Assembly: GCA_017407515.1 (NCBI GenBank)
Contig: JAFQWH010000052.1
Location: forward strand, 1 to 34,228
Direction of reading: 5' to 3'
Length of the DNA stretch: 34,228 bases
Origin: Clostridia bacterium
Lineage (GTDB): Bacteria > Bacillota > Clostridia > UBA1381 > UBA9506
Part shown: piece by piece, positions 15,139 through 22,618 of the stretch
How the letters are laid out: every line of letters begins with the position of its first letter
Numbering within the stretch: the first letter of the stretch is position 1
Notes under the pieces: model-generated
Database searches by the model: none
Seen by the model: only the letters and a program-made list of their open reading frames with translations
Told to the model about the DNA's origin: nothing
Made by a program: the position numbers and the translations under genes

Positions 15139-15987
15139 TCAGTCTGATTTTGAGACATGTGTTATAATTGCTTGTTTACGATATTCGCTGGGCGTTTTAT
15201 CAAGGTACCTTTTAAAAATTTTCATAAAATGGATATTATCTTTAAAACCAACGGAATAGGCAATTTCCTTAACGGAGAGGGTTGTGGTTTCCAGCAACCT
15301 GCAGGCTTCGCTCATTCGTAGACGAAGAATATAATTTTTAGCAGAACAATCGTGACTTTCTTTAAAAATCCGACAAAGGTAGGAATGACTAATATTGAAA
15401 TAATCACAAATAGTAGCAACAGTTAAGTCCGTTTTATTATAGCTACATTTAATATAGTCAACGATAGCATCAGGGAGGTTTGTGTTTTTTGCTTCATAGT
15501 CCCTGGAGTTATAATCCAAAATTTTATAAAAGGTGGACAAAGCGTCATAATACCCAATGGATATTTGTTTCAGTTTTTTTGTAAACAGGTGTTCAAACTG
15601 GAGGTAAACGTTATCGAAATACTTACACTTTTTAACCGGTTTTCCCTGAGTCAGGCCTAATTTCTCGCCATAGAACAAGGCAGATTCACCGTCTAGCCCA
15701 AACCAGGCGTATTTCCAGGGGTCTTCGTCAGAAGGGTAGTAACAAAAGTTGGTATTTGGTGGAAGAAAAAACATATCTCCCTTGCTTACCTTGTAAACAT
15801 TCTTTTTGTACTTCAAAACACCGCTGCCCTCTAAAACAACATGCAGTGTGCAATAGGATTGAACCCTGAAAACCTTGCTGGGAGCTACGTAATTGAAATT
15901 GTCAAAGCCAATGGAGTTAATAAGCATATCTTTGTCAATACGACTGAAAAAAGGTATGAATATGGATTTGGCCTCTAAAAATTTCAT
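15139..15987 (-). CDS. AraC-family transcriptional regulator with cupin-like N-terminus
   Basis: Predicted 282 residues. The start at 15987 has GAGGTG (15999-15994) six bases upstream; the longer frame to 16077 would start upstream of the promoter and is rejected. Residues ~20-110 look like a cupin sensor domain (VLEGSGVLKYKK, KGDMFFLPPN). The C-terminal ~100 residues contain two helix-turn-helix units of the AraC type: ICDYFNISHSYLCRIFKE, then EIAYSVGFKDNIHFMKIFKR, then the TPSEYR signature. It sits between the lipoprotein gene and a second AraC gene and has its own strong promoter. By family it probably binds a sugar and controls nearby genes; the ligand is unknown. Confidence 0.93.
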   Translation of the reverse strand: MKFLEAKSIFIPFFSRIDKDMLINSIGFDNFNYVAPSKVFRVQSYCTLHVVLEGSGVLKYKKNVYKVSKGDMFFLPPNTNFCYYPSDEDPWKYAWFGLDGESALFYGEKLGLTQGKPVKKCKYFDNVYLQFEHLFTKKLKQISIGYYDALSTFYKILDYNSRDYEAKNTNLPDAIVDYIKCSYNKTDLTVATICDYFNISHSYLCRIFKESHDCSAKNYILRLRMSEACRLLETTTLSVKEIAYSVGFKDNIHFMKIFKRYLDKTPSEYRKQAIITHVSKSD

Positions 15988-16005
15988 TAAAAACACCTCG
16001 ATTAT

Positions 16006-16034
16006 ATTATATATAGAGAGAATGCATTCGTCAA
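16006..16034 (-). promoter_or_regulatory. Sigma-A promoter of the lower AraC gene
   Basis: On the minus strand, TTGACG (16034-16029), a 17-base spacer and a perfect TATAAT (16011-16006). It lies just upstream of the GAGGTG ribosome binding site of the gene starting at 15987, giving a very short leader. Confidence 0.82.
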
Positions 16035-16161
16035 GGTGAACTATAAAAAAACACAGCAATCTGATAAAAAAGCTCATTTACAATATATTGCGAAAATATT
16101 ACAATATATTATAGATAAATATTCTATTCTGGGTGAGGTGTGCATAGTCAAACCAAATACA

Positions 16162-16938
16162 TTACTCAAAAAAGGGCGTTTTAGTTGTCCGGTTAAGCCA
16201 CTTTTTGGGAGATAAGCCGACCTTGGCGGTGAATGCCTTGGAGAAGTGATACAGGTCACAATAGCCTAAAGCAGCGGCAATTTCGGAAATGGTAAATTGC
16301 CTGCTCTCCAGCATTTCCTTGGCAGAGGAAACACGGAGCTTATCCCGGTATTCTGTAATGGTCATTCCCATGGTGCTTAAGAATTTTGACCGGAGATACG
16401 AGGGCGACATAGAACAGTATTCAGCAACCATTTTTCCGGAGAAGTTTGTTTTAAAATTTTTGTGAATATAGTCAATCGCTTTTGCAATATCCTGATTGTT
16501 GATTTGTTCATGAACGTGCATTTTGATGGTTTCATAATAAAAATCCAGCAGTTTGATTTTGGTGGCGGCGTAGGAATCCCACTGATGGGATTGCCACAAG
16601 TTGCAGATGTTTTTGAGCTTCTCCTGCTGCCGTTCGTTACAATGCTGCATAAAAGGCAGGAGCCTTTTGTCGGTGTTTAAAGTTAACGCACTTGTGATAT
16701 ATGAGCAGGAGCAAGGACATTTGATGCTGTAATTATCTCCGGCACTTAAAAAGAACATATCCCCGGCAGAAAGCGGATACTGTTTTCCGTTACAGGTTAC
16801 AGAGCCGCTTCCGGTAAGCAGCAACACGAACCCGTCAGCGGGTCTGTTCCCGTTTTGATAACTGAAATATTTGTTTTCGGTTTTATGTATAATTGTCTGG
16901 ATGTTTACAATATCAAGCGTCAGCTTTTCGTACACCAT
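16162..16938 (-). CDS. AraC-family transcriptional regulator, divergent from the glycosidase operon
   Basis: Predicted 258 residues. The start at 16938 has GGGAG (16949-16945) six bases upstream; the longer frame to 16992 would run through the promoter. A cupin-like sensor at ~35-90 (LLLTGSGSVTCNGKQYPLSAGDMFFLSAGDNY) precedes a C-terminal AraC DNA-binding domain: MVAEYCSMSPSYLRSKFLS, EIAAALGYCDLYHFSKAF and GLSPKKW. It is transcribed divergently from the DUF5107-GH1 operon, with three TTATACA boxes between them. That arrangement makes it the best candidate for the activator of region 3 (inference). Confidence 0.93.
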   Translation of the reverse strand: MVYEKLTLDIVNIQTIIHKTENKYFSYQNGNRPADGFVLLLTGSGSVTCNGKQYPLSAGDMFFLSAGDNYSIKCPCSCSYITSALTLNTDKRLLPFMQHCNERQQEKLKNICNLWQSHQWDSYAATKIKLLDFYYETIKMHVHEQINNQDIAKAIDYIHKNFKTNFSGKMVAEYCSMSPSYLRSKFLSTMGMTITEYRDKLRVSSAKEMLESRQFTISEIAAALGYCDLYHFSKAFTAKVGLSPKKWLNRTTKTPFFE

Positions 16939-16963
16939 AATTTTCTCCCGAGGTTTTTGTTTT

Positions 16964-16992
16964 ATTATACAATTTTTTTTAGAGAAAAGCAA
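16964..16992 (-). promoter_or_regulatory. Sigma-A promoter of the upper AraC gene
   Basis: On the minus strand, TTGCTT (16992-16987), a 17-base spacer and a perfect TATAAT (16969-16964). The -10 overlaps one TTATACA box (16965-16971), so binding there could block the promoter and give autoregulation. Confidence 0.78.
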
Positions 16993-17045
16993 TATTTAAA
17001 TATGTAAGAAAGTTTTTTTATACAAAAAATGAATCATATTATACA
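16965..17045. promoter_or_regulatory. Three TTATACA direct repeats, candidate AraC-type operator
   Basis: TTATACA occurs at 16965-16971, 17018-17024 and 17039-17045, all in the same orientation. The last two are exactly 21 bases apart and end directly against the -35 of the plus-strand promoter. AraC-family activators are known to bind direct half-sites about 21 bp apart next to the -35. A 12-base AT palindrome (16992-17003) also lies here. Confidence 0.55.
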
Positions 17046-17074
17046 TTGAGAAAAAGCGTGCATTAGAGTAGAAT
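17046..17074 (+). promoter_or_regulatory. Promoter of the DUF5107-GH1 operon
   Basis: TTGAGA (17046-17051), a 17-base spacer and TAGAAT (17069-17074), close to the sigma-A consensus. The start codon at 17111 is 37 bases further on. Confidence 0.72.
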
Positions 17075-17110: not shown

Positions 17111-19090
17111 ATGATTAGGTTTGAAGATTACATAATGCCGGCGGCATCTATGGGCCGGGATAACCCTATGCCGGACATAAAAAACGTCAGTTATATCCAT
17201 GCCGGATATGAGGTGACAGAGAAGGTAACAGAAGAAGAGAAAACATATCTGGGCAAGGGTATGATTTCAACAATGCTTCCTTATAAAATGCAGGACGGCT
17301 ATAACCGCGAAAAGAAAGAACGGGCTTTTAGGGCAGCCGTGTTGGAAAATGACTATGTAAAGGCGGTGTTTCTGCCGGAATTAGGCGGCAGACTCTGGTC
17401 TTTATTTGATAAACAATCCGGTCGGGAGCTTTTGCATGTGAATCCTGTGTTTCAGCCGGGAAACCTGGGTCTTCGAAACGCCTGGTTTTCAGGCGGGGTA
17501 GAGTTCAATGTTGGTATTAAGGGTCATAATCCCCTTACCTGTTCGCCCCTTTGGTGTGCTGTGGATACCTGCCCTGAGGGCGAGATTCTGCGAATGTACG
17601 AATTTGAACGGATTCGCGGCGTTGTTTACAGCATCAGTGCTTTTCTTCCGGAAGATTCAAAGGTTTTGTTAATTAAAGCAAGAATTGAGAACACAACCGA
17701 CGAACAAAAATATATGTATTGGTGGTCAAACATTGCAGTCCCTGAAACTCAGGGGACGCGGGTGCTTGTGCCGACAGATGAATCCTTTATAAGCTTTTAT
17801 GATGCAAATCATTATATTCTTGATAAAGTGTCTATTCCGAAGCAGGGCGACCTTGATGTAACATATCCCTGCAGAATTCCCTCGTCGAGAGACTTTTTCT
17901 ACAAGATTCCTGACAAACGGTATAAATGGATTGCTACGGCAAACGAAAGTGGAGAAGGCATTTTGCAATGCTCAACCCAAACCATGAAAGGCAGAAAGCT
18001 TTTTGTCTGGGGTCAGGTCCAGGGCGGCAGGAACTGGAATGAATGGCTCTCTGAGGAAGGGTCTGCATACATAGAAATCCAGGCCGGTCTTGCCCATACG
18101 CAGCTTGAGCACCTGCCGATGAACGGCAAAACAGTTTGGGAATGGACGGAGGCCTACACAGCTCTTTCGTTAGATGCATCTGTCACCCACGGAGACTATG
18201 AAAAGGCCGGTGAAGCGGTTGAAGCCTATATGCTGGACCGTGTCGGTAATCCGGACGAGCTTCATTTTCCTGAACCGGAAACAGTAACGGATTCGAAAAT
18301 TATCTATCAAGGCTCCGGTTGGGGTGCTGTTGAAGAATGTATCAGACAGGAAAGCATCAGCGAATATTGTCACTTTTCCGCAGTCGATGATGAAACACAG
18401 CTATGGTTAAGGCTGGCTCAAGAAAATGTATTTCCTGAACCGAGTGTTTTCAATGAACCGGAAAGCTATGTTGTGGGCCAGTACTGGCTTACAAAGCTGG
18501 AGGCTCTTGCAAAACCGTCTTGGTATAGTCTGCTGCATATCGGTGTTATTAAATATGCCGCCGGTGATGTTCCCGGAGCAAAACAGGCCTGGGAAGCGTC
18601 CCTGACTTATGCACCATCTCCCTGGGCACTCCGGAATCTTTCCATGTTATATAAAAACGAGATGGGCGATTTAGCAACAGCCAGAGGGTATATTTTACAA
18701 GCTTTTGAGCTCAAAAAAGATTGTCCGGCTCTTTGTAATGAGGTGGCATCACAGCTTACCTGCGACGGTGGAGACGCCTTGTGGCTTAGTATATATGATT
18801 CTCTTGATTCTAAATTACAACAAATTGGCAGATTGCGTTTTTATAAAGCAGTTGCCTTGTTGCATCTTGGTCGGCTGACAGAAGCTAAAGACATTTTAAA
18901 CCCGGATTTTGTTATGGATGACATTAAAGAAGGGGAGCTTTCAGTTTCAAGTCTTTGGTTTGAATTGTATCGACGGCTGTATGCTGAAGAAAAGGGCATT
19001 GCCTATAACCCGGACGATACAAAGCTTATACAAGAGGCAGATAAAGTGTATCCTTTGCCTCGGAAGCTTGATTTCAGAATGCACGATTAA
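17111..19090 (+). CDS. DUF5107-like protein with C-terminal TPR-like region
   Basis: Predicted 659 residues, no signal peptide, so cytoplasmic. Residues ~75-320 look like a galactose-mutarotase-type beta-sandwich: FLPELGGRLWSLFDKQSGRE, NAWFSGGVEFNVGIKGHNP and YMYWWSNIAVPE, the pattern I associate with DUF5107. From about 455 onward helix pairs resemble tetratricopeptide repeats (WYSLLHIGVIKYAAGDVPGAKQAWEASL, then ATARGYILQAFELKKDCPAL). DUF5107-TPR proteins are frequent in sugar-utilisation clusters, but I know of no firm biochemical role to assign. It is first in a run with GH1 58 bases downstream, behind the AraC-linked promoter. It may process or sense a glycoside; this is inferred. Confidence 0.8.
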   Translation: MIRFEDYIMPAASMGRDNPMPDIKNVSYIHAGYEVTEKVTEEEKTYLGKGMISTMLPYKMQDGYNREKKERAFRAAVLENDYVKAVFLPELGGRLWSLFDKQSGRELLHVNPVFQPGNLGLRNAWFSGGVEFNVGIKGHNPLTCSPLWCAVDTCPEGEILRMYEFERIRGVVYSISAFLPEDSKVLLIKARIENTTDEQKYMYWWSNIAVPETQGTRVLVPTDESFISFYDANHYILDKVSIPKQGDLDVTYPCRIPSSRDFFYKIPDKRYKWIATANESGEGILQCSTQTMKGRKLFVWGQVQGGRNWNEWLSEEGSAYIEIQAGLAHTQLEHLPMNGKTVWEWTEAYTALSLDASVTHGDYEKAGEAVEAYMLDRVGNPDELHFPEPETVTDSKIIYQGSGWGAVEECIRQESISEYCHFSAVDDETQLWLRLAQENVFPEPSVFNEPESYVVGQYWLTKLEALAKPSWYSLLHIGVIKYAAGDVPGAKQAWEASLTYAPSPWALRNLSMLYKNEMGDLATARGYILQAFELKKDCPALCNEVASQLTCDGGDALWLSIYDSLDSKLQQIGRLRFYKAVALLHLGRLTEAKDILNPDFVMDDIKEGELSVSSLWFELYRRLYAEEKGIAYNPDDTKLIQEADKVYPLPRKLDFRMHD

Positions 19091-19148: not shown

Positions 19149-20498
19149 ATGTATTTTAAATTTCCTGAAAACTTTATGTTTGGTGCAGCCAGCTCTGCTT
19201 GTCAGATTGAATCTGCCTGCAAAGAAGGCGGCAAGGGTGAAGATGTGCATGAGCATTACTTTTCGCTGTATCCTGAAAAGTATTTAAACGATGACCCGAA
19301 TGAGGGTGCTGATTTTTATCATAAATACCCTGAGGACATTAAGATGATGAAAGAGCTGGGCATCAAGTGCTTCCGTTTTTCCATCTCCTGGTCCCGTATT
19401 TATCCCAACGGCCCTGATGAGGTTTGCCAGGCAGGTCTTGATTATTATGCTGACCTGATTGATAAGCTTATTGAAGCAGGCATTACCCCGTTCTTTGACC
19501 TTTGGCATTGCGACCTGCCGTATTGGGTAATTGAAAGAAACGCACTGTTAAACCCGGAGTTTGTTGACTGGTTTGGTGCTTACGCTGAAACCTGCTTCCG
19601 TGCCTTTGGTGACAAGGTGGCATATTGGAGCACCATTAACGAGCCCAACGTTAACGTTATGGCGGCTTACGCCTGGGGCAGCACCGCACCCTTTATGAAA
19701 GATATGAAGCTTGCTATGCAGGCAAACCACATTGCAGTTCTGGCTCATTACAGAGCGGTTAAAATTTTCAGAGAGCTTGGCTGTAAGGGTAAAATCGGTG
19801 TGGTTGTTCACATTCAGCTGACCTATGCACCCAGTATGGATATGAAAGACCAGGAAGCGGCAGAACGCGATATGTCTTTCTATTCTACCTGGTGGACCGA
19901 TTCCATGCTGAAAGGGTATTATCCCAAAAACCTGATGGATTATCCCTACATTGCAGACCTGCTTCCCGAGGGTTGGGAAAAAGATTTAAAAGAAAACTTT
20001 ATTGAATCTGACTTTTTAGGTATTAACTATTACAGCTCATACATTGTTGGCTATGCCGAAGACGGCAAGCTGGATTATGAAATTGTCACCGGTGACAAGC
20101 TGCCTAAGGACGATTACGGTTTCACCATCAATCCCCAGGGTATGTATGATACCATTATGGAAATGCAAAAGCGTCACCCGGGCCTTGAGCTGATTATTAC
20201 AGAAAACGGTATTGGCAGAAAGCGTACAGGCAACTATGAAGAAGAGCTTGACGACGACTACCGCATTAACTACCTGCGTGAGCATTTGCGTGCTGTTGCC
20301 CGTGCAGTAGAAGCCGGTGCCCCTGTTACAGGCTATCTTCATTGGTCCATTATGGATACAACGGAGCTTTACGGTGGCGGCTATTCCATCTTGTTTGGTT
20401 TGACTCAGGTTCGGTTTGATAAGCCTGACAAACAGCGTATTCCCAGAAAAAGCTGGTATTACTATCAGAAAATTATTGCTGAAAAGGCAGTTAACTAA
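19149..20498 (+). CDS. Glycoside hydrolase family 1 beta-glycosidase
   Basis: A 449-residue protein, normal length for GH1, without a signal peptide. AGAGG (19137-19141) is seven bases before the ATG. The family signatures are clear: GAASSACQIE near the start, FRFSISWSRIYPNG, acid/base Glu165 in TINEPN, and nucleophile Glu352 in ITENG. GH1 enzymes release the terminal sugar from beta-glycosides with retention. Some subsite positions depart from the usual pattern: HWD is HCD (Cys121), and the usual Glu-Trp that contacts the -1 sugar is Glu406-Leu407. It may therefore prefer a sugar other than glucose. No phospho-sugar SxKxY motif is seen. It probably hydrolyses imported oligosaccharides or glycosides. 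Confidence 0.95.
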   Translation: MYFKFPENFMFGAASSACQIESACKEGGKGEDVHEHYFSLYPEKYLNDDPNEGADFYHKYPEDIKMMKELGIKCFRFSISWSRIYPNGPDEVCQAGLDYYADLIDKLIEAGITPFFDLWHCDLPYWVIERNALLNPEFVDWFGAYAETCFRAFGDKVAYWSTINEPNVNVMAAYAWGSTAPFMKDMKLAMQANHIAVLAHYRAVKIFRELGCKGKIGVVVHIQLTYAPSMDMKDQEAAERDMSFYSTWWTDSMLKGYYPKNLMDYPYIADLLPEGWEKDLKENFIESDFLGINYYSSYIVGYAEDGKLDYEIVTGDKLPKDDYGFTINPQGMYDTIMEMQKRHPGLELIITENGIGRKRTGNYEEELDDDYRINYLREHLRAVARAVEAGAPVTGYLHWSIMDTTELYGGGYSILFGLTQVRFDKPDKQRIPRKSWYYYQKIIAEKAVN

Positions 20499-20536: not shown

Positions 20537-22618
20537 ATGTGTGAAAATGCAAGTAAAGTCATGAAGCCCTTCAAACCGATTGAAGCCGTTGAAGGGGATA
20601 CGACAACCACCATCAAGGTATGGGGCAGAGAATATAGCTTTGGCGAGTCTGCTATGCCGACCTCTGTCATCACCCAGGGCGAAGAAATTTTATCCGGTCC
20701 GATTCGTATTATTTTAGAGGAAAACGGCGAGCCTGCAACTTGGTTACATAAATCTCATTATTTAATGTCCACAGAGGCTGATAAGGCTGTTGTCTGCGGT
20801 ATTCAGAAAAGCGATGCATTTGTGATTAACACAGCCATTACCGTTGAATATGACGGTCTGGTGGGCATTAACTTAAAAATGGTGCCTAAGGGCTCAACTG
20901 CCTCTGAAATTTTTGGTCACTCAAAGAGCAAGAAAGTTGGCTTTGAGGTCAATAAGCTTTGGGTAGAAATTCCCTTAAAGCGTGAATTTGCAATGATGTA
21001 TCAAATGGCAACCGGCAGCACCGTTAACTTTGAAGACGAAAATGCACCGAGCGATGCGGTTGTTCAGTCCTGCGGTGCATTAAAGCGGTCCATGTCTATG
21101 TCCTTTGCACCGCTGATTACTGTGACGGAAAACGGTTCCCGAGGCTTTTCTTACTTCTGCGAAAGCGGAAAGAATTGGGAGCCTACTGATGAAAACAGGG
21201 CGGTAGAAATTGTTGTAACAGAAGAAGAGGTTATTCTTCGTTTAAGACTGCTTGACGGTCACCCCTCATCTTGGGTGCAGAGAGGCAATAGCCCTCTGGC
21301 AAATTCTTACTTCCCCCTGACGTATCACTTCGGTTTTCTGGCAACACCTTTAAGACCGGTTGAAAAAATGGCACGCAAGAGAAGAATTCTGCACATTGCC
21401 GGTCACCATGAAGAGGGTGAAATCGATACCTATGATACATTCCTTGCCACTCCCTCAGAAAAGTTTGGCGGAAAAAACGCTTATGACAGAATGAAGGAAG
21501 CGGGGGTTACCACCCTGATTCTGCACGAGGCATGGAACACAACCCAGAACTTCTGGGAAGTGCCTGTTAAGAGAAAACGTGTTATTAAGAACATAATCAG
21601 AGAATGTCACGCAAGAGATATTGAATTCGTTCCTTACTTTGGTTATGAAATTTCTACCATCGGTTCCTATTGGGACGATGAAAAGGTCAGCGAGATTATT
21701 CGTGTGCCCAAAGATGAAGACGGTTGGTTCGGTTGGTACCGTGAACCTTTCCAGCGTGATTATATCGTTTGCTATCGGTCAGATTGGAAGAACACGATGA
21801 TTGAGGGCATTCGCAAGCTGGTTGATGAACTGGATATTGACGGCGTTTATATGGACCTGGGTATGACAGAGTGTGTGAACGAAAAACACGGCTGTGGCTA
21901 TCGTGATAAAGACGGTAAGCTCCATCCCACCTTCCCGGTTTATGGTATTCGTGAGTTGTTTAAAGGGCTTTATTCCATTTTCCAGCCCCGTGGCGGTTTG
22001 ATTGATTCCCATCAGGGTGCACAATGCAATTTCCCCTCCCGTCCTTTCATTCACAGCACCTACACCGGTGAAGAAATTGTTTGGTTCATCCGCGATTCAG
22101 GGGCAGAGAACATTCCCCTTGATTATTACAACTTTACCTTGTCAGGGAAGCCTTCCGGTGTACCGGTTGACTTTGTTATTGTAGAATATCCGGACTGGAC
22201 GTTTTCTATGGCCCTTGCAGTAACCATCATCAACGGTGCACTGCCCAGACCCAGAATGTTTGCTCATTTGGATATTATTGAGCCCTATTGGAAGGCTATT
22301 GACAGCTTCCCCACAGAAAAGGCTGAATGGTATACCTTTAAAGACAATACCGATTGGGTAAAAACCTCTACTGACGATGTGAAAGTCAGCTTCCATGTAC
22401 ATACAGATTTGCGGGGTAAAAAATCATTGCTTGCCTGTATCTCAAATCCCACTCGCAGAGTGCATGACGATGTAACCGTTACATTTGCGGACAGCTTTAT
22501 CGGTGACTATACTGCTTATGATGCAATAGCCGGTGAAGAACTTAAAGTACAGCAGGGCGTCCTGCATCTGTCCTTTGAGGAGTTCGGCACCAAAGTTATC
22601 CACATCAGCGAACTTTAA
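20537..22618 (+). CDS. Putative cytoplasmic TIM-barrel glycoside hydrolase (DUF6067-like)
   Basis: A 693-residue protein without a signal peptide; AGGAG (20524-20528) lies eight bases before the ATG, 38 bases after GH1. A beta-rich N-terminal half (~1-280) is followed by a TIM-barrel-like part: TTLILHEAWNTTQNFW, IEFVPYFGYEIST, ELDIDGVYMDLGMTECVN and GLIDSHQG. The DGVYMD strand with Asp440, and the preceding Asp of IDG, resemble nucleophile strands of clan-D-type glycosidases. A C-terminal beta domain follows. The overall pattern is what I recall for DUF6067 proteins, a predicted glycosidase family; confidence in that name is moderate. It probably acts with the GH1 enzyme on intracellular glycans. 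Confidence 0.68.
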   Translation: MCENASKVMKPFKPIEAVEGDTTTTIKVWGREYSFGESAMPTSVITQGEEILSGPIRIILEENGEPATWLHKSHYLMSTEADKAVVCGIQKSDAFVINTAITVEYDGLVGINLKMVPKGSTASEIFGHSKSKKVGFEVNKLWVEIPLKREFAMMYQMATGSTVNFEDENAPSDAVVQSCGALKRSMSMSFAPLITVTENGSRGFSYFCESGKNWEPTDENRAVEIVVTEEEVILRLRLLDGHPSSWVQRGNSPLANSYFPLTYHFGFLATPLRPVEKMARKRRILHIAGHHEEGEIDTYDTFLATPSEKFGGKNAYDRMKEAGVTTLILHEAWNTTQNFWEVPVKRKRVIKNIIRECHARDIEFVPYFGYEISTIGSYWDDEKVSEIIRVPKDEDGWFGWYREPFQRDYIVCYRSDWKNTMIEGIRKLVDELDIDGVYMDLGMTECVNEKHGCGYRDKDGKLHPTFPVYGIRELFKGLYSIFQPRGGLIDSHQGAQCNFPSRPFIHSTYTGEEIVWFIRDSGAENIPLDYYNFTLSGKPSGVPVDFVIVEYPDWTFSMALAVTIINGALPRPRMFAHLDIIEPYWKAIDSFPTEKAEWYTFKDNTDWVKTSTDDVKVSFHVHTDLRGKKSLLACISNPTRRVHDDVTVTFADSFIGDYTAYDAIAGEELKVQQGVLHLSFEEFGTKVIHISEL

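Follow-up and report, generated by a model that had tools for sequence, protein, structure and literature searches.

Three direct repeats beside a DUF5107 operon in Clostridia as the probable operator of an adjacent AraC-family regulator

The 34,228-nucleotide contig JAFQWH010000052.1 of the Clostridia bacterium assembly GCA_017407515.1, the whole of which is here called the window, carries three copies of TTATACA between a gene for an AraC-family regulator and a divergent gene for a DUF5107 protein. The question raised by this locus is whether these copies are chance repeats or an operator and, if an operator, for which protein. They start at 16965, 17018 and 17039 on the + strand, the second and third being 21 bp apart. 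The third is followed immediately 3' by TTGAGA at 17046, with TAGAAT after a 17 bp spacer, and the first (16965-16971) overlaps the -10 of araC (TATAAT, - strand, 16964-16969). An earlier note on this DNA had pointed out the three copies, the 21 bp pair, its abutment on TTGAGA and the overlap with the araC -10, and all of its coordinates are exact. As judged from sequence comparison, the repeats are most probably the operator of the adjacent AraC-family regulator, which would activate the DUF5107-GH1-GHL operon in class II fashion and repress its own gene. The features of the intergenic region are as follows.

16959..16971, + strand: distal half-site (GT TTTA TTATACA), kept in 7/7 close divergent loci and exceeding background TTATAC words outside the -10 core
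16964..16969, - strand: araC promoter -10, TATAAT, covered by the distal half-site
16987..16992, - strand: araC promoter -35, TTGCTT, with a 17 bp spacer; similar layout in most orthologous loci
17012..17024, + strand: half-site 1 (GT TTTT TTATACA), kept in 9/9 aligned loci, with 0 mismatches to the consensus in its own genome
17033..17045, + strand: half-site 2 (AT CATA TTATACA), 21 bp from half-site 1 and abutting the -35
17046..17074, + strand: putative DUF5107 operon promoter, TTGAGA, 17 bp spacer, TAGAAT; TTG in 9/9 loci, 17 bp spacer in 8/9

The word TTATACA is by itself unremarkable, with only a mild over-representation in the window (10 observed, 5.5 expected). When the intergenic region was dinucleotide-shuffled 20,000 times, none of the shuffles held three TTATACA copies or a TTATACA pair at 21 bp. 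With the choice of word allowed for, any 7-mer was present twice at 21 bp in 1.8% of shuffles, and any 7-mer was present three times with one 21 bp pair in 0.16%. The sequence of the window alone is suggestive, not conclusive, and it is the conservation across loci that is decisive.

For this comparison, relatives of the DUF5107 gene were taken from related genomes and the named genome contigs, which are mostly metagenome-assembled genomes of Clostridia, many from the ruminant gut by title, and relatives of the AraC were drawn from class and order searches. These loci are related by descent, so that the p-values are approximate throughout. Six other loci have a closely related AraC (44-58% identity), which in five is divergent to DUF5107; in locus L098 the divergent partner of the close AraC is another gene, which by eye looks like a glycosidase. 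More distant arrangements, with AraC at 28-31% identity, are found at L088, L093 and the paralogous pair L104/L105.

In the nine aligned loci, site 1 has the form TTTTRTACAAA and site 2 the form TACATTG; seven of the loci space the two by 21 bp and the other two by 20 bp. Every one of the nine has the TTG of the -35 directly 3' of the site 2 TACA, and the promoter spacer is 17 bp in eight and 16 bp in L093. The sequences and this conserved geometry are established by the alignment, and on these comparisons the three repeats are real and not the product of chance. The same layout recurs at 20 bp spacing in L104/L105 (G007, G001; ~position 1394, - strand), 5' of a different divergent gene and beside an AraC of 28-29% identity. 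The search of related genomes for the boxes that the earlier note had proposed therefore comes out in its favour, since the pair stands beside the -35 in every orthologous AraC/DUF5107 intergenic region, at 21 bp or, in two more diverged loci, at 20 bp. It had taken orthologous regions lacking the boxes as the evidence to the contrary; the boxes are missing wherever no relative of the AraC is linked. As a separate observation, site 1 of L100 and L093 is TTTTGTACAAA, with the perfect palindrome TTTGTACAAA inside it.

When all 25 sites were aligned (nine of site 1, nine of site 2 and seven distal), every one had a purine at -9 and 22/25 had T at -8, an element that lies 10 bp from the TACA and recurs in all three site classes. 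By this alignment the full half-site is RT-N4-TTATACA, of 13 bp, such that the 7 bp box named earlier holds as the core but falls short of the half-site. Two conserved elements one turn apart fit, as expected, the needs of the two helix-turn-helix motifs (HTHs) of an AraC monomer. Direct repeats about 21 bp apart, a proximal half-site at the -35 and a bipartite half-site spanning one helical turn are the features of a class II operator, and all are present here.

An operator score was calculated for 300 bp regions upstream of the DUF5107 genes (in L093, the region upstream of araC), with the positive locus being tested left out of the model. It was 27-37 in 8/8 loci with the AraC linked vs. 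-12 to 5.3 in 24/24 without it (Fisher 9.5e-8). The operator is kept where the AraC is beside another divergent gene (L098, L104/L105) and also in L093, where the AraC heads the operon and is co-directional with it. Across the 652 kb of DNA fetched, the composite is confined to the aligned loci and L104/L105; random AT-rich sequence gives 3 per 20 Mb. The co-occurrence of the composite operator with this AraC subfamily is established, and therefore the adjacent AraC is, on sequence evidence, the likely binder of the repeats.

The regulator gene is as follows.

16162..16938, - strand: araC-family regulator gene, 258 aa, with an AraC-type cupin, linker helices and a two-HTH DNA-binding domain (Pfam, AlphaFold, Foldseek)

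Its Pfam matches are HTH_18 (5.9e-19), HTH_AraC and AraC_binding (above cut-off), and its AlphaFold model (predicted local distance difference test, pLDDT, 90) has a cupin and a two-HTH domain, with helices at 179-190 and 229-240. In Foldseek the full length matches ToxT/Rns and the cupin sensor matches BgaR and AraC, and the closest solved relative by sequence is the AraC DNA-binding domain 2k9s (E 5.9e-19). The C-terminal two-HTH domain and the N-terminal AraC-type cupin sensor place it in the AraC/XylS family. A second AraC-family gene (15139-16077) is on the same strand, directly downstream of the first, and has a counterpart of 58% identity in the same place in L072.

The part played by the distal copy is less straightforward. 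This box is present in 7/7 close divergent loci, at distances to site 1 of 53, 54, 64, 64, 64, 65 and 65 bp, which fall into two classes one helical turn apart (phasing p ~1e-4 against a uniform null, seven loci). The AraC tree has two separate changes between the short and the long distance class, each of about one helical turn. Phasing that is kept across both of these changes supports a functional contact, not specifically a loop. The box overlaps TATAAT, and for this reason the distal site was compared with background TTATAC words only at positions outside the -10 core, where GT is present at -9/-8 in 6/7 vs. 4% of the background, and the final A (+3) in 6/7 vs. 33%; beyond the -10 core the difference is at p ~3e-5 (Mann-Whitney U, approximate for related loci). 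The earlier note had suggested that a third site 53 bp away could support looping or autorepression. Its position and helical phase are indeed conserved, while a loop of 53-65 bp is but one of the ways to read the phasing.

The circuit would then work with one monomer on each half-site, its two HTHs reading the TACA groove and, 10 bp upstream, the RT groove. Half-sites 1 and 2, which end at the -35, would hold a dimer in contact with RNA polymerase, and binding of a sugar-derived ligand by the cupin would bring about class II activation of DUF5107-GH1-GHL, in the manner of E. coli AraC bound to I1-I2. At the distal half-site an additional protomer would cover the araC -10, by which araC would be repressed.

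Several points weigh against this circuit. We infer, from sequence, the binding, the activation, the ligand, the autorepression and the distal-proximal contact. Site 2 is degenerate (TATATTG) in L104/L105. The core of the distal box is shared with the araC -10, so that its conservation is partly explicable without AraC binding, and the box reads TTATACC in L098, is without RT in L099 and is missing in L088. These last observations favour an arrangement in which only sites 1 and 2 bind AraC and the distal copy is no more than the -10 of araC (TGTATAAT read backwards). It coincides with the TATAAT of a conserved araC promoter, and L088 has such a promoter without the box. It would be hard on this account to explain why the distal copy matches the half-site outside the -10 core, or why its distance to site 1 is held in helical phase, and we regard it as unlikely. 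It is very improbable that another regulator, or promoter architecture alone, accounts for the repeats. The core is AT-rich and overlaps the promoter elements of both genes, and there are 20 other AraC-like matches in the genome, but the operator is missing from the DUF5107 promoters without AraC and is present where the AraC adjoins other genes, and the alignment lacks the 10-11 bp register of PhoP-type repeats.

Given binding by the adjacent AraC, the distal and proximal sites could also form a short repression loop or cooperative complex over the 53-65 bp between them. The two phased distance classes, and the two changes between them that the AraC tree needs, speak for this. However, such short loops are costly without DNA bending, there are only seven loci, and the same phasing would be expected if site 1 acted from class I-like positions on the araC promoter, all of which makes this rather doubtful. 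Equally tentative is a compact three-site operator as a property of this AraC subfamily of mostly ruminant-gut Clostridia, in which the distal half-site, inside the -10 of the regulator's own gene and some five or six turns from the activating pair, would couple both divergent promoters through a minimal cooperative complex or loop. As for loops in general, the seven loci do have a third half-site whose helical phase matches that of the proximal pair. A loop of the AraC-style class was rejected, as the distance is 53-65 bp and ~200 bp is required.

How far the regulator reaches was estimated from the number of full sites. The assembled genome has a single good site, which is a perfect match, and one further match with 2 mismatches that is of chance quality. 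Five of the six relatives searched have a single site at 0-1 mismatches as well as matches with 2 mismatches; the pattern search found no full-site match in G101, where the pair is at 20 bp. A scan of the genome contigs with the single AraC sequence gave no match, and in the phylum-wide sample searched with a wide AraC alignment only the window itself was found. The regulator is probably local and acts on one operon, which has to be set against a genome that is 80% complete and may be missing more sites. The regulatory model of the earlier note is supported, but not its extension to the whole of what the note called region 3, since the regulon appears to be a single operon. The genes of that operon are listed here.

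17111..19090, + strand: DUF5107 gene, with a galactose-mutarotase-like supersandwich and tetratricopeptide repeats (TPRs), first in the operon (Pfam PF17128, 2.6e-33)
19149..20498, + strand: GH1 beta-glucosidase-like gene, second in the operon (Pfam Glyco_hydro_1, 1.1e-120)
20537..22618, + strand: GHL6/DUF6259-like gene for a putative glycoside hydrolase, third in the operon (weak Pfam matches to GH123_N, DUF6259 and GHL6)

The gaps between these genes are 58 and 38 bp, relatives of the GHL gene adjoin DUF5107 in most of the examined loci, and the controlled unit is most likely DUF5107-GH1-GHL. For the second gene, the best NCBIfam model of the product is a GH1 beta-glucosidase, with a score under the cut-off of the model. 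The DUF5107 protein (AlphaFold pLDDT 92.7) has 5cd6 as its nearest solved structure in Foldseek (E 1.8e-28), followed by galactose mutarotases; it is predicted from the model to have a mutarotase-like domain with TPRs, which provides a lead for a domain of unknown function. To call this a glycosidase promoter, as had been done, is apt for the operon but not for its first gene, DUF5107 being no demonstrated glycosidase.

The genes of the operon differ in how closely they match their counterparts. Compared with L010/L072, the GH1 of the window is 98% identical in protein and 92.6% in DNA, and agreement at four-fold sites is 70% in GH1 vs. 43-44% in DUF5107 and AraC. The GHL gene is 92% identical to that of G008, with the adjacent DUF5107 at 73% and AraC at 58-59%. 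This contrast suggests that part of the operon was recently exchanged between species.

In E. coli, araBAD has the half-sites I1-I2 and the distal site O2, with an O2-I1 loop of ~210 bp. The locus described here shares with it a cupin and two-HTH regulator, 21 bp direct half-sites, a proximal half-site at the -35, a distal repression site, here a putative one, and divergent genes. It differs in its recognition sequence and in its distal site, which is 53-65 bp away as opposed to ~210 bp and sits on the araC -10. At Pm, XylS, which responds to aromatic effectors, uses two-part half-sites TGCA-N6-GGNTA in a 21 bp direct repeat reaching the -35. The bipartite 21 bp direct repeats to the -35 are alike in the two systems, and the XylS half-site sequence is different. 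Very probably, as far as comparison of sequences can tell, the circuit belongs to the AraC class II type and has a recognition sequence of its own, the architecture itself being textbook.

The E. coli AraC loop and I1-I2 switch have been described (PMC4486848). Direct repeats of 21 bp have been described for predicted AraC-family rhamnose regulators in Bacillales, Bacteroides and Enterococcus (PMC3870299), and in Caldicellulosiruptor tandem sites of AraC-family sugar regulators upstream of promoter elements were taken as a sign of activation (PMC8579813). The likeness to the regulators of both reports is in the repeat or tandem layout and the control of sugar genes, and the target genes here are others. 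BgaR-bgaL, the lactose switch of Clostridium perfringens, in which BgaR has been used together with the bgaL promoter (PMC5816073), is also of clostridial AraC type with a similar cupin (Foldseek 6nwj/6nwo). The likeness is that of the sensor, over which the identity is 17-18%.

What is least ordinary is that the third site has kept its helical phase. For an AraC subfamily that is uncharacterised and belongs to Clostridia of the herbivore gut, most of them uncultured, the analysis provides a putative operator sequence and a circuit open to testing, and it ties DUF5107 to probable sugar-responsive control alongside GH1 and GHL-type enzymes.
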